From: an uncultured Hyphomicrobiales bacterium
GTDB taxonomy: Bacteria; Pseudomonadota; Alphaproteobacteria; Rhizobiales; Beijerinckiaceae
Reading direction: 5' to 3'
Length of the DNA: 64,000 bases
Assembly: GCA_903847605.1 (NCBI GenBank)
Contig: CAINED010000078.1
Coordinates: forward strand, 62,001-126,000
The notes under the pieces are model-generated. The model ran no database searches and was not told the origin of the DNA. It saw only the letters and a program-made list of their open reading frames with translations. Below, in pieces: positions 10,540 to 34,026 of the stretch (position 1 is its first letter; each line of letters opens with the position of its first letter). Made by a program: the position numbers and the translations under genes.

Positions 10540-10562
10540 GCGCGCCGGTCTGATCCAAACGC

Positions 10563-10592
10563 AAAAAAGGCCGGGCAAGCCCGACCTTCTCA
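10563..10592 (-). terminator. Rho-independent terminator of the csp gene
   Basis: Read on the minus strand, an AAGG/CCTT and CGGGC/GCCCG stem is followed by TTTTTT. It lies 60 nt past the stop of the cold-shock gene and also between convergent genes, so it may stop both transcripts. Confidence 0.7.
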
Positions 10593-10652
10593 TCTACGCC
10601 TCAACGGTTATTGCCAGTACATCCGTGGTCAAGACCAGAGGCAGTATGGGAA

Positions 10653-10862
10653 TTATGCAGCCTGAATGTTCTCGGCGGCGCTCTTGCCGTTACGATTGTC
10701 CTTGACGATGTCGAAGTTCAGCTTCTGACCTTCGACGATCGTGCTCAGGCCCGCACGTTCGACTGCAGAGATATGCACGAAAACATCGGCGCCGCCGCCA
10801 TCGGGCGCGATAAAGCCGAAGCCCTTTGTGGCATTGAAGAATTTAACTGTTCCAGTGTTCAT
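10653..10862 (-). CDS. CspA-family cold shock protein
   Basis: Single cold-shock domain, 69 aa, binding single-stranded nucleic acid and acting as an RNA chaperone. The RNP1 motif is KGFGFIAPD (residues about 13-21) and RNP2 is DVFVHISA (about 26-33). It starts [17 protein letters not shown], the common form in Rhizobiales, and AAAGGGAA lies just upstream of the ATG. A long, partly AT-rich leader (10863-11160) precedes it, as usual for csp genes. Confidence 0.93.
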
Positions 10863-17761: not shown

Positions 17762-20700
17762 TTACGCCACGACGGTGAAATCCGCCGCCGTCAGGGTCGG
17801 CGCGCCGGTCAGCGTACCCAGACGCTCACGCGTGCTGCCGGTGGCGCTGCCGTCGGCATCGAAGTACAGCACGCCGTTCGTCGTGTTGTAGACGAAGCGT
17901 GTCGTTCCGTCGCCGCCGTCGTTGGCATTGCCGGTCGCGTTGGAAATGAACTGCAGGCCGGTGAGCGGGGAGCCCCCGACCAGTCCACCGCCAAACAGCG
18001 ATGCCGACACTTCCAGCTGATCGATGGCCTCGAAGTCGCGGATGGTGTCGCGATCGAGATTGGCGTTCGACAGAACAAAGATGTCGGCGCCTGCGTTGCC
18101 GAAGAGCGTATCCATGCCGAGGCCGCCGACGAGACGGTCGGCGCCGTCGCCGCCCGAGAGCCGGTCGGCGCCATCGTTGCCGATGAGTACATCATTGCCG
18201 CCGCTACCCTGGATGGTGTTGGCGAACTCGTTGCCCGTCAGCGTCAGGCCAGTCGTCCCGGCATTGGCATAGAGGCGTTCGATCTCCTGACCGAGGGAGA
18301 GTTCGTAGCTAACGCTCGCATAGACAATGTCGGCAGTGCCGCCACCGGCCGCTTCGATCACGCTGTCGGAGGCATTGTCGACGTAGTAACGGTCGTTACC
18401 TGCGCCGCCGGTCATCGCATCGACGCCAGCTTTGCCATCGATGATATCATCGCCAGCATTGCCCGTTATTGTGTTGGCTCCGTCGTTACCGGTCAGGATG
18501 TCGTTGAAGCCGGAACCGATGAGGTTTTCGAAGCCGGTCAGCGTATCGCGACCCGCGCCGACCGTGTTCTGCGCCGCCGTCAGGCCGAGGTTCGCACGAA
18601 CTCCGGCAGACGCGCCCGCGTAGCTTGCAGTATCGATGCCGATATTGCCGGCGAGAATATCGTTGCCAGCGCCGCCTTCGATGAAATCGTCACCGAACCC
18701 GCCGTTGATGTTGTTATCGAGGGTGTTGCCGATCAGGCGATCGTTGAACGCAGAGCCGACGATATTCTCGATGTTGCGCAGGCGATCGGTATCCGCCGTT
18801 GTGACGTCAACGCCGTTGCGGGCGACGAGGGCGAGTTGGCCGCCCTCCTGCAATCCGAGCGAGGTCAGATTGATCGAGTGCGCCTGCACGTCCGTCAGGA
18901 ACAGCGAGCCGCCGGCCAGGCCGAACAGCGTCGATACATCGAGAACGCCTGAGGATTCCCAGTTGCCGAAATCGCCGGGATTGCCGTCCGTCTGGCCGAA
19001 CGGCACGGCGGAGCGATCGATCTCTGCCACCCGCGTGATCGCGCCGGAAACAGGATCGACCCGCAATATCGAAGCCTCGTTGGTGTTCGGCGTTCCCGTC
19101 CACGTCGTCGATCGGTCTTCGTTGATGTAGAGATAGCCGTCGTCGCCCCAATCGAGATTGTCGGGGTTGCGCAGGCTGCGATTGGGGTCGCTGTTGCCGT
19201 TGTTGAGGACCGTCAGCGTGCCCGTGGGCGCATTGATGTTGCTGAAGTTGAGATTGATCGTATAGACCGTGCCCCAGATGTCCGTCGCGTCGGCAACGCC
19301 ATCGGCCGTATTGCCGGCCGCAATCGAAGCGCCCGTCGATGCGAAGGCGACCTGCGTCCCGTTGAAGGGATTGACCGAGAGATCTTCAGGGCGCGAGAAG
19401 GAGAAGGCTCCAACTGCATCGGCCTCGGCGCGAAGGGTCGTTTCGTTCTTGTATCCGAGCGCATCGTAACCGGGCTGACCGGCCTTGGTGATATCGCGCG
19501 CCTCAATGGCCACCCATGTGCCATTGGCGTTGCCCGAAGCGAATTCCGCCGGCGAATTGACGCCTGCCGCATCCGCTTTCCAGACGTAGAGCTGTCCGTC
19601 CTTCAAGCCGTTGCGGTCGAGGAAGTCGCCGCCAGCATGCTTCGTGCCGACATAGAGATAAAGCGGCATGCCATTGGGGCCGTCATCGCCGAGCAGGAAG
19701 GCCACGCGATCAGTCGTGCCGGTATCGACCTGGGCAACGTTTTCCCAGCCGCCACGGCCGAATTCAGGGACGCCCCAGAGATCGCCGGTCGCCGTGTCGA
19801 GCGCCCAGAAGGAGCCGTTCGTTGTTTCCTCAGCGGTAAAATAAATGCGGTCAACGATGCCGTTACCTGCGCCGAACTCGTCGGCTTCGAAGATTCCGCC
19901 GGAGCAGAAACGGCCGAGCGCGCCGCCATCCAGTTGCGAGGCTGCCGTGACGAGGTTGCCCGCGCGGTCGTAGATCGAACCATAGGCAATACCGCCATCG
20001 ACAACGGCCTTGGTATCCTTGTCTATGTCGAAATAGTGCACACGCGCGCCACGCAAGGTCGTGCCGTTCTCAAGCTGATAGTTCGCGCCAGCGGCCTGCG
20101 AAAGTTCAGAATTGACAAAGACTCGAACAGTGTCCGCATCGAGCGAATAGGCGCCGATGCCGTCGAGAATGCCGGTCGGCGTATAATTGCCTGAAGTCGT
20201 GCTGTTGAGCGCGCCTGTCGTGCCGGTCAGAGTCTCGCCGATCGTCAGGAGCGACGTGACCGTATAGCCATTCTCGCCGCGCAGCATCGGCGCTGCGGTT
20301 GTGAGCGCTCCATCCTCTGGCACGATTTGACCGAAGCCGCGGGTGAGATCGACACTGACAGCGCTCGCAGCATCCGTGTAGGTCACAGTGTCGGTTCCGT
20401 TGCCGCCGTCGATCTGGTCTGCGCCGCCGCGGCCATTGATGAGATCGTTGCCGCCGCCGGCGTTGATGATCTCGTCCTGGGCAGTTCCCGTCAGCGTGTC
20501 GTTGCCTTCGGTGCCGGTGATGAGCCCCGGAACCAGCGAAGTCGCCTGATAGATCGAAATCGAGTTGCTGACCTCGTTGGAAAGGATCAGCAGATCCTGC
20601 CCGTTCGGGCTTTCGGAGGCCGGGATGAACAGCGTGCCTTCCGGCGAGACATCGCCTTCGGTCCGCACATAGGTCGTGAAGGTCACGTCGGCCGGATTGG

Positions 20701-22048
20701 TGAGGTCGAACACCATGTTGCCGCCACCCGCACGTTCCAGCGAGACAAAGGCGTAGGTGCGGCCATTGATCTGGCCAACCGTGATGCCCTCGGGCTCAGG
20801 TCCTTTGTTATCGCTGCGCGTATCGGACAGCGTGGTGAGACCGCTGTCGGCGTTGTGAAGGGACGGCGTCAGCAAGGCGACGGCTTGCTCGATGAGTCCG
20901 GCGCTGTCGAACACGCGATTGCCGTTCGCATCGACGATCGAGAAGGAGCGCCCGCCATAGCCGACGATACGGTCGAAGTCGCCATCGCCATCGGTGTCGC
21001 CGTCAATACGCGACACTGTCAGGCGGCCGAGTTCGGCATTAGCGCGCAGAGCGGCCTCGTTGGGGAACAGCGTGTTGTCGAGATCGTAGCCCGCGTTGCC
21101 CAGACGGATCGTCTCATCCGTCGCGAGAAAATCGTCGCGGTCGTCGCCCTCGTTCGCCATCACGTAATAGGTCTGCGTGCCGACCTGGAACGAGGAAATG
21201 GCGTCCGGCATATACATGCTGAAGATGGGCTCGTTGCGGATGCGCGTCGACGTCGGGTTGGCCGGGCCGTCGTCGCTGGCGTCGAGCACGTTGCCGGGCA
21301 GGCTCCAGTCCTTGAGGCCGAGCGGCACGATCGAGGTGATGGTCGCCGTGGCGATATCCAGGATTGCGACGGCATTGTTTTCCTGCAGCGTGATCATCGC
21401 CGACAGGCCATCGGGCGAGATCGCGATATATTCCGGCTCGAAATCAAGCGAGGCGGACACTCCGTTCGTGATGCGCACGCCGGCCGCGCGAAGCGCCGCT
21501 TCCTGCCCGTTGAAAGCGTCGAAGGTGACCGCCGTCACTTCGCCGGTTTCGATATCGATGATGCTGATCGAGCCTGCGCCGTTGACGCCCGCCGTTGCCG
21601 ACATTTCGCCCTCGTTGGCGACGAGAATCTTTTTGCCGTCCGGCGTGAAGGTCAGCATATCCGGATGTGCGCCGACTTCGACCGAGCCGATGAAATTGCC
21701 TGACGCGGCCGAGAAGAAAGCCACGCGGCCGTTGTTCGCCTTGTCCGCATCGCTGCCCGCGATGCTGTCGTCAGGTATTGTGACGGCGACGATGCCGTTC
21801 TTGACCGCCACGGACGTGATATCGGTGCTGTTGTGGCTGCCGTTTGCGGCCGCGCGCATGTCGAGGGTGGCAATCAGGGTAGGGGTTGCCGGGTTCGAAA
21901 GGTCGATGATCTGGAGCCCCGACGAGGACGTCGTGAAGAGCCGATGGCTGCCGGAGTCGTAAGCCGAAATCTCGGCGCCCGCGAGCCCGGCGATGCCGCC
22001 GACACGATTGAGATTGAGTTCGTTTGTCGGCGTCGTAGTCAGCGTCAT
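17762..22048 (-). CDS. Large RTX protein with phosphatase-like propeller domains (choice-of-anchor I and PhoX-like)
   Basis: 1428 aa from ATG 22048 (GGGG 8 nt upstream); the frame is open to 22159 without a ribosome site. Domains in order: about 1-510, a beta-propeller of the choice-of-anchor I / alkaline-phosphatase-like type ([52 protein letters not shown]); about 513-550, a first RTX block ([21 protein letters not shown]); about 580-1050, a PhoX/DUF839-like propeller ([35 protein letters not shown]); about 1100-1365, RTX nonapeptides of GGxGxDxLx type; then a tail ending [10 protein letters not shown], typical of type I secretion. There is no Sec signal peptide. A calcium-dependent secreted phosphatase or phosphodiesterase is inferred. 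No HlyB/HlyD/TolC genes are in the window. Confidence 0.82.
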
Positions 22049-22324
22049 GAAATTTCCCCGCAAGAACGAGACCTGACGAGTGCCGGCCTCAAATGAACCT
22101 ACGGGTCCGTCGCTAAACGGGCTCTGTGATGTTTGCGTGAAGCTTGTTTCACAATACAAATAATCGGGGACGGCTTTGGGCAGAGCCGGTTCGACCCGCG
22201 TTCCGGAAGTGGATGGAGTTTCACCGGATATTCGGACGCACCGAGCCCAGATGCCGAATTAATACGATTTATTTCGACGTTTTCGGCGTCGTGGACCTGG
22301 TTGGCGATGGTCCATCTGAATGTA
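22049..22324. other. Promoter region of the RTX gene, left of the island
   Basis: 276 bp without a gene, between the RTX start and the left island boundary. It must contain the RTX promoter on the minus strand. I see no clear promoter boxes. With the following 163 bp inside the island (22325-22487), the gene-free stretch is 439 bp. Confidence 0.4.
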
Positions 22325-22339
22325 ATGGCGGAGAGAGTG
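22325..22339 (+). repeat. attL-type direct repeat
   Basis: ATGGCGGAGAGAGTG, identical to 33936-33950. Beyond the 15 bp the match continues imperfectly through the T-loop region (TCGAA at 22345-22349 against TTCGAA in the tRNA), as expected for an att site derived from a tRNA 3' end. Confidence 0.85.
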
Positions 22340-22487: not shown

Positions 22488-23546
22488 ATGGCACGACAGG
22501 CGCTCAATTCCCGCAAAGTCGAAACCGCAAAGCCCGGCAAGTATTCGGACGGGAAGGGGCTCACGCTGATCGTTGCGCCCACTGGCACGCGCAAATGGGT
22601 TCTGCGCTTTCAATGGAATGGCAGGCCGCGCGAGATGGGTCTGGGGGCTGCGGAAGCCGCCAACCTTGCCCTTGCCCGCGAAAAGGCTGCCGCCGCCCGC
22701 CTGCTCATCGCCAAGGGGATCGATCCGATTGCCGCCCGGCATAAGGACCGGGTGCGGACGTTCGGGGAATGTGCGGACGACTACATTGCAGCGAAGGCCT
22801 CCGAATGGCGCAACGAAAAGCACAAGGCGCAATGGGCGATGACGCTCACGGAATATGCCGCGCCGCTGCGTGGCAAGCCTGTCGATACAATCGAGACGGC
22901 GGACGTTTTGGCGGTCCTGAATCCGATCTGGCAGGCGAAGACCGAAACCGCCTCAAGGCTGCGGGGACGGATCGAACACATTCTGGACGCTGCGCGAGCG
23001 GCCGGCCATCGCTCGGGAGAAAATCCGGCCCGGTGGCGCGGCCATTTGGACAAGCTGCTTCCGAGGCGCGCGAAGCTCGCTCGCGGCCATCATGCGGCGA
23101 TGCCTTATGCCGAAGTCCCGGCCCTCATGGCCAGTCTGCGCGAGCGCGATGGGATGGCAGCCCGGGCGCTTCAATTCGCCGTGCTGACGGCCGCGCGCAC
23201 TGGCGAAGTGATCGGCGCAAAGTGGTCTGAAATCGATTTGGACGCCAAGGTCTGGACGGTCCCGGCCGCGCGAATGAAGACGGCGCGTGAACACCGTGTG
23301 CCGATGTCGGCCGCTTCCGTCGAATTGCTGAAACCGCTGTCCGAAAATCGAACCGGCGAATTTGTCTTTCCCGGTGGGGAGGCTGGCAAGCCGCTGTCCA
23401 ACATGGCGATGGATATGACGCTGCGGCGGATGCGGGCAGGGGACGTAACGGTCCACGGCTTTCGGTCATCCTTCCGTGATTGGGCCGGCAACGAAACGTC
23501 GTTCGCCCGTGAGATTGCGGAAGCCGCGCTGGCGCATGTGGTGTAA
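22488..23546 (+). pseudogene. Tyrosine integrase, N-terminal part, interrupted by IS66
   Basis: P4/DUF4102-type site-specific recombinase. The fragment has the N-terminal arm-binding domain (about 1-90), the core-binding domain and most of the catalytic domain, with Arg in TAARTGEVIGAKWSEID and His-Arg in VHGFRSSFRDWAG. It ends abruptly after AEAALAHVV, where a stop comes from IS66 sequence. The missing end, VVGDATERAYRRGD with the catalytic Tyr, lies at 28958-29099. Joining 22488-23542 to 28958-29099 gives an in-frame 398-aa enzyme. Confidence 0.9.
23535..23542. repeat. Target site duplication, left copy
   Basis: CATGTGGT, identical to 28950-28957. Eight bp is the usual duplication length for IS66-family insertions. 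Confidence 0.85.
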
Positions 23547-23562
23547 GCGTCCGGTCTGGTCG
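23543..23562 (+). repeat. IS66 left inverted repeat
   Basis: It starts GTAAGCGTCCGGTCTGGTCG. The inner part CGTCCGGTCTGGT also occurs inverted inside the element at about 26002-26014 and, with one change, at 26723-26735, where older right ends may once have been. Confidence 0.75.
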
Positions 23563-23590
23563 ACCTGCCTGGGGTGGGAGAGATTGCGTA

Positions 23591-23614
23591 GTGTCCACCT
23601 TTGGCAGTGGACAC
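23591..23614. repeat. Inverted repeat before tnpA
   Basis: GTGTCCAC (23591-23598) and GTGGACAC (23607-23614) flank an 8-nt spacer, 16 nt before the tnpA start. The hairpin could limit read-in translation of tnpA or bind transposase. Confidence 0.5.
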
Positions 23615-23630
23615 TCAGGAGCATTCTTTC

Positions 23631-24008
23631 ATGGCCCGGCCTCGCAAGCACCGGCATTGGAGCGACGAAGAAAAGCGTTCGATTTGTTGTCAGAGCAAGA
23701 TAGCCGGGATTTCCGTGGCGCAGGTCGCACGGCGGTATGCGATGAACGCGAACCTTATTTTCAAATGGCTGAACGATCCGCATTATGTACCTGACAACGT
23801 TGTTGGGGATACACAGACCTTTTTGCCGGTCGAGATCGAGGCAAATGCCTCTGCTGACAGAGTGCCGTTGGTGGAAGCTCCGGCAACGACATGTTCGGGC
23901 GGGGCCGGACGATTGGAGATAATCCTGCCCGCGGGCCTTCGGCTAAAGGTTGATGGCGGGTTCGATGGAACCGAGCTTGCTCGGCTGATCAAGGGTCTGA
24001 TGGCGTGA
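23631..24008 (+). CDS. tnpA: IS66 family accessory protein TnpA
   Basis: 125 aa from ATG 23631, with AGGAG 9 nt upstream. It has an N-terminal helix-turn-helix ([40 protein letters not shown], about 7-46), typical of IS66 OrfA, then a C-terminal part [18 protein letters not shown]. The stop overlaps the tnpB start (GTGA at 24005-24008). Confidence 0.9.
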
Positions 24009-24352
24009 TCCCGGTCCCCAGCAATGCGCGCGTTTGGCTGGCAGCTGGCGCAACGGACATGCGGCGTGGCTTCCACACATTGGCAGCGCAGGTGCAGGCT
24101 TCGCTGGCCGAAGATCCATTCTGCGGCCACATGTTCGTCTTCCGGGGGCGAGGTGGTGATCTCTTGAAGATCATCTGGTGGGATCAACAGGGGGCATGCT
24201 TGTTCTCCAAGCGTCTGGAGCGCGGCCGGTTTGTTTGGCCATCTGCAAAAGGCGGGAAGGTGTCGATGTCGGCGGCGCAACTGGCAATGCTGCTGGAGGG
24301 GATTGATTGGCGAGCACCGCAAAGAACATGGCAGCCCCTGACGGTTGGATGA
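24005..24352 (+). CDS. tnpB: IS66 family accessory protein TnpB
   Basis: 115 aa, GTG start overlapping the tnpA stop. Signature sequence: [60 protein letters not shown]. This is the conserved IS66 Orf2 protein that is needed for transposition together with TnpC. Full length. Confidence 0.93.
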
Positions 24353-24432
24353 CGCAATAAAGTCGATAAAAGCTGGGGTAATATACACGTCATGGATTCC
24401 CATGAATCGCATAATTTGCTAGACAATTGACG

Positions 24433-25974
24433 ATGAAGCCCAGTCCTGCAAACAGCGCACGGAACAAGCAGATTGACGCTGCTACCCTTCGCGCGCTGCT
24501 TGCCGAAAGAGATACTGAGATTGCGGGCGTCAAAGCCGAACTTCATAGCCGAAACCTTCTCATCGAGAAGCTGAAGCATCAGCTCGCCGGTCTGCGCCGT
24601 CACCAGTTTGGCTCAACCTCCGAAGCCCTCGATCAGCTCGAACTGACCCTGGAAGATGAAGAGATTGCACACGCTGCAAAAACGCCTTCCGCAAACGATC
24701 CCTCGTCAGACACCATAAAAGACCAGCCCAAGCGCAGGCCGCTGCCGGAACATCTGCCGCGCAACGAGACCGTGCTCACGCCAGGCAACGCCTGCCGCGT
24801 CTGTGGCGGCCGGTTGAAGCAACTTGGCGAAGATGTCACCGAAGAACTCGAATATGTTCCCGGTCGCTTTGTCGTCAATCGCATTGTCCGTCCGCGCCTG
24901 GCCTGCGCCTGCTGTGAGAAGATCCAGCAAGCGCCATTGCCCTCGCGGCCGATCGAGCGGGGCCGTCCGGGTCCGGGACTGCTCGCCCATGTTCTGGTCA
25001 GCAAATATGCCGATCATTTGCCACTCTACCGCCAGAGCCAGATTTTCGGCCGTGACGGGATCGATCTGGAGCGCTCCACTCTGACCGACTGGGTTGGCAA
25101 ATCAACGGCCCTTCTGGAACCTCTGGCGGACGCCATTGGCCGCCACGTCCGGCAGGGTCTCGCCATCTTCGCCGATGACACACCCGTCAAAGTGCTGAGC
25201 CCTGGCTCAGGTGGCACAAAAACCGCGCGGCTCTGGGCCTATGCCCGCGACGAGCGCCCCTGTGCGGGCCCGGCCCCTCCGGCAGCCTGGTATCAGTTCT
25301 CCCGCGACAGGAAGGCTGAACGGCCGCAGGATCATCTGCGCGCCTACAAAGGCTGGATGCATGCAGATGGTTATGCCGGTTTTGAAGAGCTCTATGGCAG
25401 TGGCCGGATCAGGGAAGCCGCCTGCATGGCGCATATCCGCCGCAAGTTTGTCGATGTCCATCAATCCCAGGGTTCTGTTATTGCCGAAGAGGCCATCAAA
25501 CGCATTGCCGGACTTTATGCCGTCGAGAAAGAGGTGCGGGGACAGCCGCCCGATATCCGGCAAGCCATCCGCGAGCAGAAAGCAAAGCCGATCCTTGATG
25601 ACCTTGAGGTCTGGCTCGGCCAGCAATTACCGAAAATCTCTGGCAAGTCGCCCCTGGCGGCGGCCATCCGCTATGCGCTGACCCGGATCAAGCGGCTGCG
25701 GCCCTATCTCGACAACGGTTTTCTAGAGATTGATAACAACACGGCCGAGCGCTCCATGCGGCCAATCGCGCTGGGCAGAAAGAACTACCTTTTCATGGGC
25801 TCCGAAGGCGGCGGCAAGGCCGCAGCCATCGCCTACACATTGATCGAAACCGCCAAACTCAATGGTGTCGATCCCCAAGCCTGGCTCACGGACATTCTTG
25901 GTCGCATCGCCGATCATAAGATCACCAGGCTCGACGAGCTGCTGCCGTGGCGTTACGCTGCCAAGGCAGCGTAA
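24433..25974 (+). CDS. tnpC: IS66 family transposase TnpC
   Basis: 513 aa from ATG 24433 (an in-frame TTG at 24427 is an alternative). An N-terminal leucine-rich coiled coil (about 20-55) is followed by a zinc-binding region (CRVCGG and CACC, about 125-165) and the DDE core: [22 protein letters not shown], then [23 protein letters not shown] with the catalytic Glu. It looks full length and intact, so the element may still be active. The last 198 nt plus the downstream flank are repeated at 26498-26741. Confidence 0.95.
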
Positions 25975-26020
25975 CAGACGCACGGTCTATTGCGCCAGAG
26001 CAACCAGACCGGACGGTCGC
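25777..26020 (+). repeat. Direct repeat copy 1 (tnpC tail plus flank), 244 bp
   Basis: Runs from the RKNYLFMGS codons of tnpC through the stop to ...CCAGACCGGACGGTCGC. The second copy at 26498-26741 has the same length and is clearly similar but diverged, mostly at third codon positions, so it comes from a related element and is not a recent duplication. Confidence 0.8.
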
Positions 26021-26090
26021 GATGGAAAGCACTGATCCAACCGCTGTTCTCGCGCGTAACAGGGTGGTCAACCAGCTGGGAGGCTATCTT

Positions 26091-26489
26091 ATGGCGATCG
26101 ATCTGAACAACATCTTGAGTGATAACACTGCAGGGCTACCCCTGCTTAAGGTTCTGGCGGAGAACAGTTTTGATTCTGTGCTGATTACGGACGCGAGCAA
26201 TGAAGGCAAAATAATTTACGCAAACGAGGCCTTCAAGAAACTGACCGGGCATGATCCGAAGGATGCCATTGGCCAAACACCGCGCATTCTTCAGGGGCCT
26301 GGCACGGATAAAAAAGTTACGGAACGACTTAGCATCGCGCTGAAAACGGGCGGTAGCTTTGAAGGTAAGGCGATCAATTACAAGAAAGATGGTACGCCAT
26401 TCATTATGTTTTGGCGAGTTTTACCAATCAAAGTTGGCGAGAAGATCGAAGCCTGGATCGCGATTCAGCGTGAGGGTGCTTCAATCTAG
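26091..26489 (+). CDS. PAS domain protein, IS66 passenger
   Basis: 132 aa from ATG 26091, with GGGAGG 7 nt upstream; an earlier ATG at 26022 lacks a ribosome site. One PAS_9/LOV-like domain fills residues about 22-128: [69 protein letters not shown]. The LOV motif GRNCRFLQ reads GQTPRILQ here, so the flavin-reactive Cys is missing and blue-light chemistry is not expected. No output domain. It lies between two copies of the tnpC tail. Confidence 0.8.
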
Positions 26490-26497
26490 CGCCGTTA

Positions 26498-26695
26498 CGA
26501 AAGAACTACCTCTTCATGGGCTCCGAAGGCGGCGGCAAGGCCATGGCCATCGCCTACACCCTCATTGAGACCGCCAAACTCAACGGCGTCGATCCGCAAG
26601 GCTGGCTCACCGACGTCCTCGCCCGCATTGCTGATCACAAGATCACCCGGCTGGACGAGCTGCTGCCGTGGCGTTACGCTGCCAAGGCAGCGTAA
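26498..26695 (+). pseudogene. Truncated second tnpC copy (C-terminal 65 codons)
   Basis: Encodes [20 protein letters not shown]... WRYAAKAA and a stop, homologous to the end of the intact tnpC (25777-25974) with several amino acid differences. No start and no upstream tnpC sequence. A remnant of another IS66 element. Confidence 0.85.
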
Positions 26696-26741
26696 CAGAC
26701 GCACCATCTATTGCGCCAGAGCAGCCAGACCGGACGGTCGC
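26498..26741 (+). repeat. Direct repeat copy 2, 244 bp
   Basis: Counterpart of 25777-26020. Similarity begins at the RKNY codons and stops right after GGTCGC in both copies, beyond which the flanks are unrelated. That shared end point probably marks an old element end or a recombination point. Confidence 0.8.
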
Positions 26742-27164
26742 CAACAATCCCGCACAAAGGCGGATGGGGTTTTAGGGACCATGGGGACAACTGTCCCGCG
26801 TGGGACGCCTGAGGCTGCCGGGACAAATGGGACAATTGGGAGCATGCTCCTCATATGGTAATGGGCTTTTCAGGGATTTGAACAAAAGAGCCTGATTACC
26901 AGCAGACTGTGAAAAGGATTGTCACTCGTTTGTCCGCGATAGACGGGAGATGTATCCAAATATAGCCCATACCCCCTATTTGGGGGGCCCATCCGATCCT
27001 TGATGCATCTAACGCGTTTTGATATGCTGCGAAATTGGACTTTATTTTTTTTAAAGGTAGTGGCAGAATTATGCTGTTAGTCAGATAAAGTAATTATGTA
27101 ATATTTTTAACCGAAATCTATCACCCGCAGATGCCTTAAGATGAGCCGGGTCGAGGTAAGAGCA
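26742..27164. other. Non-coding stretch with GGGAC repeats and an AT-rich leader
   Basis: 423 bp without a gene. 26775-26833 has five GGGAC and one GTCCC, including GGGACA-N2-TGTCCC. At 26971-26986 lies ACCCCCTATTTGGGGG, similar to motifs at 12138 and 15331. 27030-27120 is very AT-rich and probably holds the promoter for the gene at 27165. Confidence 0.45.
26971..26986. promoter_or_regulatory. Palindrome ACCCCCTATTTGGGGG
   Basis: Third member of the CCC-N5-GGG motif set in the window, about 180-195 nt before the exported protein at 27165. Confidence 0.3.
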
Positions 27165-27503
27165 ATGTATAACAGAGTTCGCTACATCAGCGTTTTGATC
27201 TTATATTTAATCGTCAACGGCTCCGAAGCAGCGACATTGTCTATGATTTGCAAAAATCCAAGACGTGAATATCTTGTGGTATTCAACGATTTTTCTAGAT
27301 CATTCATTGCCAAAGCAGAAGAAGGTGACACGCCCTATAGGGTCGATAGTATCCGACGGGTTGGAGAAAGCTATACAGTCAAGGGAGTAACAATTTTTGG
27401 GGGACCCTCATTTTCAGCATTAATCGGGGATGGTCAACAGTTCATTCAATTCTTCGATAGTCGAAAATTGCATCAGACTGACTATTGCCGAAAGGCGAGC
27501 TGA
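27165..27503 (+). CDS. Small exported protein, function unknown (IS66 cargo)
   Basis: 112 aa from ATG 27165, with GAGGT 8 nt upstream. Signal peptide-like start (YISVLILYLIVNGSEAA, about 6-22), mature part of about 90 residues with two Cys (MICKNP, DYCRKAS) and mixed beta-like sequence (YLVVFNDFSRSFIA). Codon use is AT-rich, unlike the chromosome. Probably cotranscribed with the gene at 27570. No family recognised. Confidence 0.6.
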   Translation: MYNRVRYISVLILYLIVNGSEAATLSMICKNPRREYLVVFNDFSRSFIAKAEEGDTPYRVDSIRRVGESYTVKGVTIFGGPSFSALIGDGQQFIQFFDSRKLHQTDYCRKAS

Positions 27504-27569
27504 GATATGAACTTCATGCCTACTAGACCGGCGGCAAGAGATTGTCACGTAGCTCCAAAAAGGTGGCAC

Positions 27570-28043
27570 ATGACGCGCTTATTATCGATTGCCTTGTCGT
27601 TTCTCACTCTCGCTTTTTGTTCAACAGGTCTGTCAGCACAACAGGAACTGCCCAGACGGATGACTTTTTTCGAGGGCAGGTGTCGAATGCAATTAGTAGC
27701 CGACTTCCTTCCATGCCAGCCTAAAACTCTTTTTGCAGAACTGAGAAACGGGCGGGCGTTCCTGACTTTCTTTGCGGGCAAACATTCATGGACGGTTTCT
27801 GGTTCGGGCGATAGGCAGCCAAACCTAGAGAATTACTATCATAGCATCGACACCATCAGAATGTTGGAAGGGAGCAAACATGTCGGCGAAGATCGACAAA
27901 TGGAGGGCGAATGCCATTTCCGATTGAATAAGCAGGCTACCAAATTTTTCTGGATCAGGTGTGACGTATATAATCGAGGTAAAGGCTCCCATTATAAATT
28001 CTATTTTGAACCAATAATTAAGTTCGAAAAGAAAGATTTTTAA
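27570..28043 (+). CDS. Exported protein, function unknown (IS66 cargo)
   Basis: 157 aa from ATG 27570 with AGGTGG just upstream; the frame is open to 27507 but the export signal starts at MTRLLSIALSFLTLAFCSTGLSA. The mature part has four or five Cys (RCRMQL, LPCQP, GECHF, RCDVY), probably disulfide-bonded. AT-rich codon use. It follows the gene at 27165 by 66 nt. No family recognised. Confidence 0.6.
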   Translation: MTRLLSIALSFLTLAFCSTGLSAQQELPRRMTFFEGRCRMQLVADFLPCQPKTLFAELRNGRAFLTFFAGKHSWTVSGSGDRQPNLENYYHSIDTIRMLEGSKHVGEDRQMEGECHFRLNKQATKFFWIRCDVYNRGKGSHYKFYFEPIIKFEKKDF

Positions 28044-28227
28044 TATTAGAATGCGGACCTATGAGTATAGGAGACATTGCCCGGAATAGGAAGTCGTTAA
28101 GCTGGGTTGGAGTGGTCAGTTTGAAATCCCAGACGTTGCTTCTTTAAAAAAATTTCAATTCTGTTTTCAATTGCAAATCGCGCAGACAAAGGCGATCTTG
28201 TCAGTAATTGGCGATAATGCAGCGAAG

Positions 28228-28560
28228 TTAGTAGACCGGAACCTTATTCACGCGGCAGTCAAATGATCCTTTTATTTTATTGTTAAAGAACCTTCCCATA
28301 GAGTCTGCGCCTAGAAAAGCCGATACAATGCTGCGATCAATTGCACAATAGTGGAACCAGCTACCCCTGATGTTTATAAGCATATACATGTTTCTTTGAT
28401 CGAAGCATAGTTCATGAATAAAGCTACTTTTCTTTATCTCTTGGCATTCGAATGGTGTGAGGGCAACGAAGCCTCTATATTTAACGTCAACTGTTCTGGC
28501 CTGTCCGCCTCCGCTTGCTAAGCAGACGATAATGGCAGTTGAAAAAATGCTATATCTCAT
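28228..28560 (-). CDS. Exported protein with a KTSC-like domain (IS66 cargo)
   Basis: 110 aa. Signal peptide (MRYSIFSTAIIVCLASGGGQA), then SSFIHELCFDQRNMYMLINIRGSWFHYCAIDRSIVSAFLGADSMGRFFNNKIKG (about 45-98), which follows the KTSC pattern: a short beta sheet, then the helix-turn ending S-x-G-x-F/Y-[FL]-N-x-x-I-K. KTSC domains occur in mobile elements and near nucleic-acid enzymes, mostly cytoplasmic, so an exported form is unusual. AT-rich. Confidence 0.65.
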   Translation of the reverse strand: MRYSIFSTAIIVCLASGGGQARTVDVKYRGFVALTPFECQEIKKSSFIHELCFDQRNMYMLINIRGSWFHYCAIDRSIVSAFLGADSMGRFFNNKIKGSFDCRVNKVPVY

Positions 28561-28658
28561 GATGCGCTGGCTCTTCTAAATCAACATCGAATACTGATGT
28601 AGATAGGTTCTGAGGGCTTGAGGTAAAGGACGAGTTTAACCTGCTTGTTTTCCTTCGA

Positions 28659-28952
28659 TTACTTACATGGCTTGTTTTTCTCAATTGTGGCCTTAGCGTC
28701 CGTCTCCTTAAGCAACAAACTGTAGGAAACGGTACAACCCCCTGATCCACAGGAAAACCATTCCTCAATGAATGCTTGTGCTCGGTGCGGCGCAATAATT
28801 TTAAAAACATTACTGCCACCAGACGAGCCCCCACATTGTGCTATTTTGCTGAGGCGAAGACGGTTCTTGTTACCCTTTACCGAATCCTCAAGAAGCCCCC
28901 CCGGTCCCCACTCTCTCGAAAGTACGTTACTAGCGAACTCGACGCTAACCAT
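28659..28952 (-). CDS. Hypothetical 97-aa ORF at the right end of the IS66 element
   Basis: Its ATG falls in the target duplication. The first 30 residues look non-native, while the C-terminal part (GGSNVFKIIAPHRAQAFIEEWFSCGSGGCTVSYSLLLKETDAKA) looks like real protein with paired Cys. It may be the 3' remnant of a gene cut when the element end formed. Confidence 0.35.
   Translation of the reverse strand: MVSVEFASNVLSREWGPGGLLEDSVKGNKNRLRLSKIAQCGGSSGGSNVFKIIAPHRAQAFIEEWFSCGSGGCTVSYSLLLKETDAKATIEKNKPCK
28930..28949 (-). repeat. IS66 right inverted repeat
   Basis: Read inward it begins GTTAGCGTCGAG. The tip matches GTAAGCGTC of the left end except for one base; similarity then weakens. The outer boundary is fixed by the target duplication. 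Confidence 0.65.
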
Positions 28953-28957
28953 GTGGT
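28950..28957. repeat. Target site duplication, right copy
   Basis: CATGTGGT, matching 23535-23542. It encodes the His-Val-Val of the integrase in both fragments. Confidence 0.85.
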
Positions 28958-29099
28958 TGGTGATGCCACGGAACGAGCATACCGTCGCGGCGATGCGCTG
29001 GAAAAGCGGCGCGCGTTGATGGAAGCATGGGCAGGCCATTGTCAGCCCGTAAGCGAAGGCAAGCTGCTGCCGTTTCCAAAGCGCGCTGCTGCGGTTTGA
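28958..29099 (+). pseudogene. Tyrosine integrase, C-terminal part
   Basis: Continues the integrase after the insertion: GDATERAYRRGDALEKRRALMEAWAGHC and a tail ending KRAAAV. The Tyr codon at 28980-28982 (ERAYRRGD) is the expected nucleophile. The fragment has no start or promoter, so the integrase is inactive as it stands. Confidence 0.9.
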
Positions 29100-33935: not shown

Positions 33936-33950
33936 ATGGCGGAGAGAGTG
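33936..33950 (+). repeat. attR-type direct repeat at the tRNA 3' end
   Basis: ATGGCGGAGAGAGTG; from position 33937 it is the CCA end and acceptor strand of the tRNA on the minus strand. Identical to 22325-22339. Confidence 0.85.
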
Positions 33951-34026
33951 AGATTCGAACTCACGGTAGGCTTGCACCTACGGCGGTTTTCAAGACCGCT
34001 GCCTTAAACCACTCGGCCATCTCTCC
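33937..34026 (-). tRNA. tRNA-Ser (anticodon UGA)
   Basis: 90 nt including an encoded CCA. Acceptor GGAGAGA pairs with TCTCTCC, the anticodon loop CTTGAAA gives TGA, a long variable arm follows, and the T-loop is GTTCGAATC. The 3' end serves as the integration site of the island to its left. Confidence 0.95.

Follow-up and report, generated by a model that had tools for sequence, protein, structure and literature searches.

The gene for the integrase of a small genomic island, a P4-type tyrosine recombinase, is interrupted by a 5,407-bp unit at positions 23543-28949 of the window, i.e. the whole 64-kb stretch of DNA that was analysed. The unit consists of the IS66 genes tnpABC and a cargo, and it is bounded by an exact 8-bp duplication (Table 1). 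Most probably, IS66 tnpABC transposed into the island integrase as this 5.4-kb unit and carried adjoining DNA along past two internal right ends, A and B.

Footprint in the island integrase

The original prediction had proposed that a 5.4-kb IS66 element splits the integrase with a precise 8-bp footprint. Its coordinates turned out to be exact, and the duplication as well as the tips, GTAAGCGTC at the left and GTTAGCGTC at the outer right end, were verified. On both strands of the 64-kb window, CATGTGGT occurs twice, namely at the two flanks of the unit. The 5′ frame of the integrase continues into the element and stops at a TAA (23544-23546). Deletion of the unit and one copy of the duplication had been predicted to restore a 398-aa integrase, and recomputation gave the same frame, in which 22488-23542 is joined to 28958-29099 and which reads ...ALAHVVGDATERAYRRGD.... 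Empty integrases were indeed present in relatives, as both pieces were matched at 22 of 29 related non-self loci and were contiguous in all 22. Independent support for the insertion comes from the restored frame and from the unbroken integrases of relatives. Conservation of two copies of CATGTGGT in uninterrupted integrases would have contradicted an insertion; the octamer was absent from a 75-bp stretch surrounding the insertion site in each of the 22 integrases, which is a weak test because these are only 31–61% identical to the window integrase.

The statistical weight of the duplication was assessed by a generic search for 8-bp direct repeats around 9-bp inverted repeats (at most one mismatch, 0.7–10 kb apart). 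Such pairs are not rare by themselves: 8 were found in the window, the unit counted, and 0–5 (mean 2.35) in 20 mononucleotide-shuffled windows. However, the position of the left end is fixed independently by homology. Given the left tip, the window contains nine right tips with at most one mismatch to it, and the chance that CATGTGGT follows any of the nine is about 1e-4.

The 3′ piece of the integrase contains the motif AYRRGD, which we take to include the catalytic Tyr. The placement of this residue on the far side of the insertion was borne out: the Pfam match of the split integrase stops at position 139 of 172, compared with 165 of 172 in an uninterrupted relative, and the interrupted integrase is devoid of the segment bearing the Tyr. 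The insertion removed this segment, and thus the island is probably prevented from excision by its own enzyme. The further claim that the island lost its integrase is probable, though short of proof. Near the end of another contig (G000:C81) lies an integrase start with 89% identity over 61 residues, including one TGA within the match, and a second integrase may therefore exist or not.

The island appears to be bounded by a 15-bp sequence that repeats the 3′ end of tRNA-Ser (BLAST E 0.007–0.017 within the window). Arm, core and catalytic domains as well as direct repeats and a neighbouring tRNA 3′ end, as expected for a P4-type island integrase, were all found. Neither the tRNA-Ser repeats nor the published status of cargo-bearing IS66 elements had been part of the original prediction.

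Table 1. Positions of the features of the unit and the surrounding island in the window
Feature	Position	Strand	Basis or remark
Probable left att repeat, 15-bp copy of tRNA-Ser 3′ end	22325..22339	+	15/15 identical to 33936-33950
Integrase 5′ piece, P4-type tyrosine recombinase	22488..23542	+	PF22022, PF13356, PF00589
Left target-site duplication CATGTGGT	23535..23542	+	sequence
IS66 left end (IRL) GTAAGCGTCCGGTCTGGTCGACCTG	23543..23567	+	homology to L102 end; tips like IS66 relatives
tnpA, IS66 accessory, ISRel24-type	23631..24008	+	NF047595 84.9 bits, cut-off 74
tnpB, IS66 accessory	24005..24352	+	NF033819, PF05717
tnpC, IS66 transposase, complete frame	24427..25974	+	NF033517 455 bits, cut-off 180; PF03050
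Internal right end A (IRR-A), tip GCGACCGTCCGGTCTGG, probably bypassed	25996..26020	-	6/25 mismatches to IRL; alignment
PAS/LOV-like passenger gene, 132 aa, without LOV cysteine	26091..26489	+	PF13426; motif GQTPRILQ
Remnant of second IS66 tnpC 3′ end, includes IRR-B	26499..26741	+	243 bp, 89% identical to 25778-26020
Internal right end B (IRR-B), probably bypassed	26717-26741		within second-tnpC remnant; alignment
Small ORF of the cargo, 120 aa, start hydrophobic as judged by eye, no family	27141..27503	+	one plasmid match 26%, 8e-4
Small ORF of the cargo, 178 aa, start hydrophobic as judged by eye	27507..28043	+	47% to N-terminal part of 615-aa ORF in G094
KTSC-domain cargo ORF, 110 aa	28228..28560	-	PF13619 9.9e-11
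Open frame crossing right end of element, may not be gene	28659..28952	-	no relatives
Outer right end, the one used, GTTAGCGTCGAGTTCGCTAGTAACG	28925..28949	-	11/25 mismatches to IRL, then CATGTGGT
Right target-site duplication CATGTGGT	28950..28957	+	sequence
Integrase 3′ piece with AYRRGD	28950..29099	+	contiguous with 5′ piece in related loci
Probable right att repeat at tRNA-Ser 3′ end (tRNA-Ser 33937-34026)	33936..33950	-	sequence match

Transposition genes, ends and cargo

TnpA, TnpB, and TnpC all scored above the curated NCBIfam cut-offs, and TnpC also contains PF03050, PF13005, PF13007 and PF13817 (DDE, IS66 Zn-finger, LZ, C-terminal) above cut-off. The accessory genes tnpA and tnpB lie upstream of tnpC, and the 8-bp duplication is accompanied by inverted tips of the GTAA type, with one deviation in the outer right tip. 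The predicted assignment to IS66 was thus confirmed by the NCBIfam scores and by tips of the same kind at 15 related loci with perfect 8-bp duplications. IS66 is carried by 58 of 199 family genomes at the threshold used.

The 15 loci stem from a survey of 44, which included the window's own locus (L156, cut too short) and the overlapping loci L157/L198 and L090/L101. Loci were accepted when the tips began with GTA on both sides, and therefore the observation that all tips start with GTA is partly true by construction. Eight loci with other tips in their best pair were dropped (L157, L198, L158, L161, L163, L168, L170, L146); L161 has a perfect 25-bp inverted repeat, yet the octamer there is identical to its reverse complement. 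No pair was detected at the remaining 21 of the 44 loci. A recount showed that IS66 genes are absent from L149, L196, L197, L200, L102, and L203.

Two further right ends, A and B, lie inside the unit, the latter within a remnant of a second tnpC. Both resemble the left end more closely (6 and 7 mismatches in 25 bp) than the outer end does (11 mismatches). With this value the outer end matches its left end worst of all, since the pairs of the 15 IS66 relatives have 3–10 mismatches in 25 bp; over 20 bp its 7 mismatches fall within the range of 1–7 for the same pairs. CATGTGGT does not follow A or B, and the right flank of A is GATGGAAA. The two internal ends look like true former IS66 ends, because their terminal bases are identical and the sequences downstream diverge directly after them. 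Their outermost bases are altered, GCGACC instead of GTAACC. A third IS66 remnant (G049) has the GCGACC tip too, and this tip may therefore be functional; if it is, there is no evidence why A and B were skipped. The internal ends and the IS66 remnant are features that the original prediction did not contain.

The cargo of about 3 kb (26021-28949) lies between tnpC and the right end, as passengers of published tIS66 elements do. Together with tnpABC it is enclosed by the duplication, in line with the predicted composition of the transposed unit. It is a mosaic of a Cys-less LOV-like PAS gene, the 243-bp tnpC remnant and an AT-rich stretch of 2.2 kb that holds four small ORFs. The best solved relatives of the PAS protein are phototropin chains (1.6e-18). 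The idea that the PAS gene is a standard IS66 passenger was rejected: at the best 80 of 100 loci with a relative (flanks of at most 6 kb, often shorter), TnpC was found at none, and a TnpA-like and a TnpB-like match at one locus each. In four genomes of the same genus, the alignable part comprises the PAS gene and a short upstream stretch, besides small scattered repeats.

For the 178-aa ORF, no match was found in plasmids or viral contigs, and for the 97-aa frame none in plasmids or among 396 further genomes from the order sample. Five of 297 other family genomes have relatives of the KTSC ORF, of which three are weak. The AT-rich cargo had no plasmid match and one remote match among the 297 other family genomes; the constant association with the integrase in the absence of tnpABC that would have spoken against a transposed unit was thus not seen.

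Routes to the present unit

We consider the following course of events most likely. Before the jump, an IS66 copy would have adjoined the PAS gene, what is left of the second IS66, and the AT-rich DNA. The transposase would have ignored the right ends A and B with their altered outermost bases and would have paired the left end with the poor IS66-like right tip 2.9 kb further, so that the intervening DNA was carried along. Insertion would then have cut the integrase gene and created the duplication. The presence of A and B inside the unit, the lack of CATGTGGT after both, and the weak match of the outer end argue for such a capture. The open frame that runs across the outer end is a further but weak argument for it, as this frame has no relatives.

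Alternatively, an established passenger-bearing IS66 with long-resident cargo and an adapted right end of its own could have made an ordinary jump. Published tIS66 elements carry passengers downstream of tnpC and have ends of mixed ancestry (PMC12888890), and with its mismatches over 20 bp the outer pair just reaches the limit set by the 15 real IS66 pairs. Nevertheless, we regard this history as rather unlikely, as the tnpC remnant and the internal right ends A and B give the impression of a mosaic that arose by accident, and no further copy of the unit was found. The own genome contains merely a 67-bp bit of tnpA, the 50 other genomes of the genus contain no second copy (best five candidates scored per genome), none of 2,315 matching plasmid records reaches 80% coverage, and one phage record matched with 19% covered. 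Some piece of the unit is present in 18 of the 51 genus genomes. The occurrence of the unit with other flanks, for which a search had been suggested, was therefore not supported in the own genome, the 51 genus genomes, plasmids, or phages, and a single footprint is the basis for its movement as a whole. The donor site was likewise not located.

It is very unlikely that a plain IS66 inserted into the integrase first and the cargo entered later just inside the right tip. The GACG adjoining the outer tip CTAAC also precedes the GTCGC of end B, which would fit such stepwise growth. However, the same GTCGC is found at end A and at the third remnant in G049, and thus an inherited tip is a more plausible explanation of it than the start of an insert; the flanks of A and B also speak against this order of events. 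Finally, although generic repeat pairs occur by chance and the source genome is a 92-contig assembly, a chance duplication or an assembly artefact is extremely improbable in view of the homology-defined left end, the low chance value for the right end, and the restored frame, which relatives match in its joined form.

The proposed capture of adjoining DNA by the window element is also supported by an observation in the same genus. L102 carries an element of 5,973 bp that is devoid of IS66 transposase genes, is flanked by an exact 8-bp duplication, GGCAAATC, and is bounded by two left ends of the window's IS66 type (93% identity over 122 bp and 87% over 87 bp). IS66 ends of this type are therefore used in non-native pairs too.

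Relation to known elements

Passenger-bearing IS66 elements (tIS66) have already been published (PMC12888890), and the unit is thus a well-marked new example and not a new kind. ISPa75, a tIS66 from Pseudomonas, shares with the unit IS66 tnpABC, the left tip GTAAGCGTCC, target duplications, passenger DNA downstream of the DDE transposase, and a right end related to elements other than those of the left end (PMC12888890). It differs in its length of 2,996 bp, its one passenger gene, and its ten target sites (PMC12888890), whereas the window unit is 5,407 bp long, is known from one copy, and contains several ORFs in its cargo besides the tnpC remnant and the two IS66 right ends in its interior; recurrence at several sites is not necessarily a defining feature. 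The IS1380-family TMos of Paracoccus, as outlined in PMC3281130, resemble the proposed history of the unit in that adjacent genomic DNA is mobilised by a single IS copy, but they were defined with trap plasmids, while the window contains an IS66 with one natural footprint. The MICs named in the same source (PMC3281130) are similar to the L102 element, which has IS ends and cargo and no transposase. The window unit itself, in contrast, has tnpABC.

IS91 and IS801 have a different transposase type and are not known to have a pair of inverted repeats, whereas IS66 has a DDE transposase and generates 8-bp duplications. A likeness of the proposed capture to the one-ended transposition of IS91/IS801 (PMC3189936) is that extra DNA is taken along when another sequence replaces one end. 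The limits of such composite units can seldom be recognised from sequence outside a conserved context, as stated in PMC3281130. Here, the split integrase supplies the exact boundaries of the unit.

IS66 is widespread, and few printed cases of cargo capture by IS66 were found. The unit retains traces of a possible capture route: two skipped right ends, a remnant, and a weak outer end. We tentatively propose, as a possibility that falls somewhat short of even, that the IS66 transposase works as a gene-capture machine in the manner of ISEcp1 or of TMo elements. Altered native right tips would have led to two successive skips, the use of a weak surrogate tip, and the movement of unrelated neighbours, and in the same genus the transposase would also move transposase-less cargo between two left ends. 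The unit offers defined ends for a direct assay of the end pairs that the transposase accepts.

Split integrase and footprint of the IS66 unit

In the source genome (5.34 Mb, 92 contigs), the integrase gene of the island is divided by a 5,407-bp unit, which is flanked on either side by CATGTGGT. The 5′ frame reads up to AALAHVV and then meets an immediate stop inside the foreign DNA, and the 3′ piece picks up behind the unit with HVVGDATERAYRRGD. No further occurrence of CATGTGGT was found in the window besides the two flanks. Deletion of the unit restored an integrase frame of 398 aa, as the original prediction had claimed. For comparison, matches to the integrase were present in 42 of 51 genus genomes; 30 loci among the matches listed were used, one being the window itself. 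Both pieces were matched in 22 of the 29 non-self loci, and in all 22 cases they were contiguous at exactly the insertion point, while the short C-terminal piece had no match in the other seven. CATGTGGT was absent from the 75 bp around the site in all 22 contiguous integrases, which is a weak test, as their identity to the 5′ piece of the window is only 31–61%.

All three transposition proteins, TnpA, TnpB, and TnpC, scored above the curated IS66 cut-offs, and the frame for TnpC is complete (515 codons). Among 44 surveyed IS66 loci, 15 had a credible end pair with a perfect 8-bp duplication, chosen by tips starting with GTA on both sides. These elements have a length of 2.37–2.96 kb, their right ends lie 24–305 bp past the TnpC match, and their ends mismatch at 3–10 of 25 positions. 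The window unit has roughly double that length, its right end is located 2,975 bp past tnpC, and its ends mismatch at 11 of 25 positions.

The bare pattern of an 8-bp direct repeat outside a 9-bp inverted repeat (at most one mismatch, 0.7–10 kb spacing) is not rare, with 8 pairs in the window versus a mean of 2.35 in 20 mononucleotide shuffles. The case for the footprint rests on the left end, which was fixed through homology to other IS66 ends, on the computed probability of about 1.2 × 10^-4 that any of the nine right tips within one mismatch in the window precedes the same octamer, on the restored frame, and on the contiguous relatives.

The insertion removed the last part of the catalytic domain. 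The Pfam Phage_integrase match of the 5′ piece ends at position 139 of 172, and that of an uninterrupted relative reaches 165. A direct repeat of 15 bp, consisting of the 3′ end of tRNA-Ser (BLAST E 0.007–0.017), indicates that the island probably spans 11.6 kb, IS66 unit included. It codes for an AAA_25 helicase-like protein and would probably be unable to excise on its own. A second, putative integrase start, with 89% identity across 61 residues and one TGA within the match, lies close to the end of another contig of the source genome (C81, 29654–29836, locus L202).

Features of the unit and its surroundings (window coordinates)
Feature	Position	Remarks
sRNA ar35	10560–10690	minus strand; alphaproteobacterial, Rfam RF02346
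1,465-aa ORF	17762–22159	choice-of-anchor I, PhoX-like, RTX repeats; directly left of island
15-bp repeat, left	22325–22339	
Integrase gene start	22488	
IS66 unit	23543–28949	
Right end A	25996–26020	directly after tnpC
PAS gene	26091–26489	after end A
Second copy of tnpC 3′ end		243 bp, 89% identical; after PAS gene; carries end B
Right end B	26717–26741	
120-aa ORF		in 2.2-kb part; hydrophobic start by eye
178-aa ORF		in 2.2-kb part; hydrophobic start by eye
KTSC-domain ORF		in 2.2-kb part; opposite strand
Open frame		fourth small ORF of 2.2-kb part; runs through right end of unit
Outer right end	28925–28949	
Integrase 3′ piece, start	28950	
15-bp repeat, right	33936–33950	

Cargo and right ends

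The last part of the cargo comprises 2.2 kb with 44% G+C and four small ORFs. The 178-aa ORF is similar to the N-terminal section of a 615-aa ORF from genome G094. Of the 297 other genomes of the family, 5 contain relatives of the KTSC ORF, with weak matches in three of these. IS66 genes had no match in the four examined loci with relatives of cargo ORFs (L149, L196, L197, L200). The product of the PAS gene is a member of a stand-alone LOV-like protein family (100 loci in genome contigs, the best 80 of 100 at 66–80% identity). At the position of the LOV cysteine, all 85 rows (self included, some contigs twice) read like G[KQ]TPRILQ, without Cys, and some neighbours of the family loci resemble photolyase-related genes by eye.

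Ends A and B have the tip GCGACCGTCCGGTCTGG in common, and the sequences downstream diverge immediately after it. Two related right ends, L198 and L104 (part of a mosaic), carry GTAACCGTCCGGTCT at the corresponding place, a GCGACC tip is also found at a remnant in G049, and the right tips of further relatives are GTAAGC or GTAACC. The mosaic (L104 3700–5480, contig C200 of the same-genus genome G032) combines an IS66-type left tip with the tnpC 3′ end of an IS66 with a GTAACC right tip, and also holds a cytochrome c'-like ORF and an integrase-core-like fragment (both by eye).

Probable bypass of internal ends and relation to known elements

Bypass of A and B with capture of adjoining DNA appears to be the most likely origin of the cargo. 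The transposase would skip A and B and use the outer tip as partner for the left end, which would turn the adjoining DNA into cargo. Bypass is supported by the location of A and B inside the duplication, by the outer end being the poorest match, and by an element in G032 that is bounded by two IS66 left ends. This element (L102 1517–7489, contig C59) has 5,973 bp and lacks IS66 transposase genes. Its two inverted left ends belong to this IS66 type, matching at 93% across 122 bp and at 87% across 87 bp; it also has an exact 8-bp duplication, GGCAAATC, and carries one 1,588-aa ORF with DUF11 and DUF5979 domains as cargo. Three points count against bypass. GCGACC may be a working tip, because three right ends with different flanks carry it; the outer pair, with 7 mismatches over 20 bp, is still within the range of real pairs; and a donor locus was not found.

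In the available sections of a 2026 paper, passenger-bearing IS66 elements are named tIS66, passengers are reported for 7 of 25 Pseudomonas IS66 members, and the left and right ends of ISPa75 are related to different elements (PMC12888890). The accessible text of PMC3281130 describes transposable modules (TMos) of the IS1380 family, in which a single IS mobilises adjacent DNA, and the passenger genes in the corresponding parts of PMC7371123 belong to Tn3-family transposons. No case of IS66 end bypass was found in the available portions of PMC3281130, PMC3189936, and PMC3925955. Cargo-bearing IS66 elements are thus already known, and the unit is a new, well-delimited example, the mechanism of which merits an assay.
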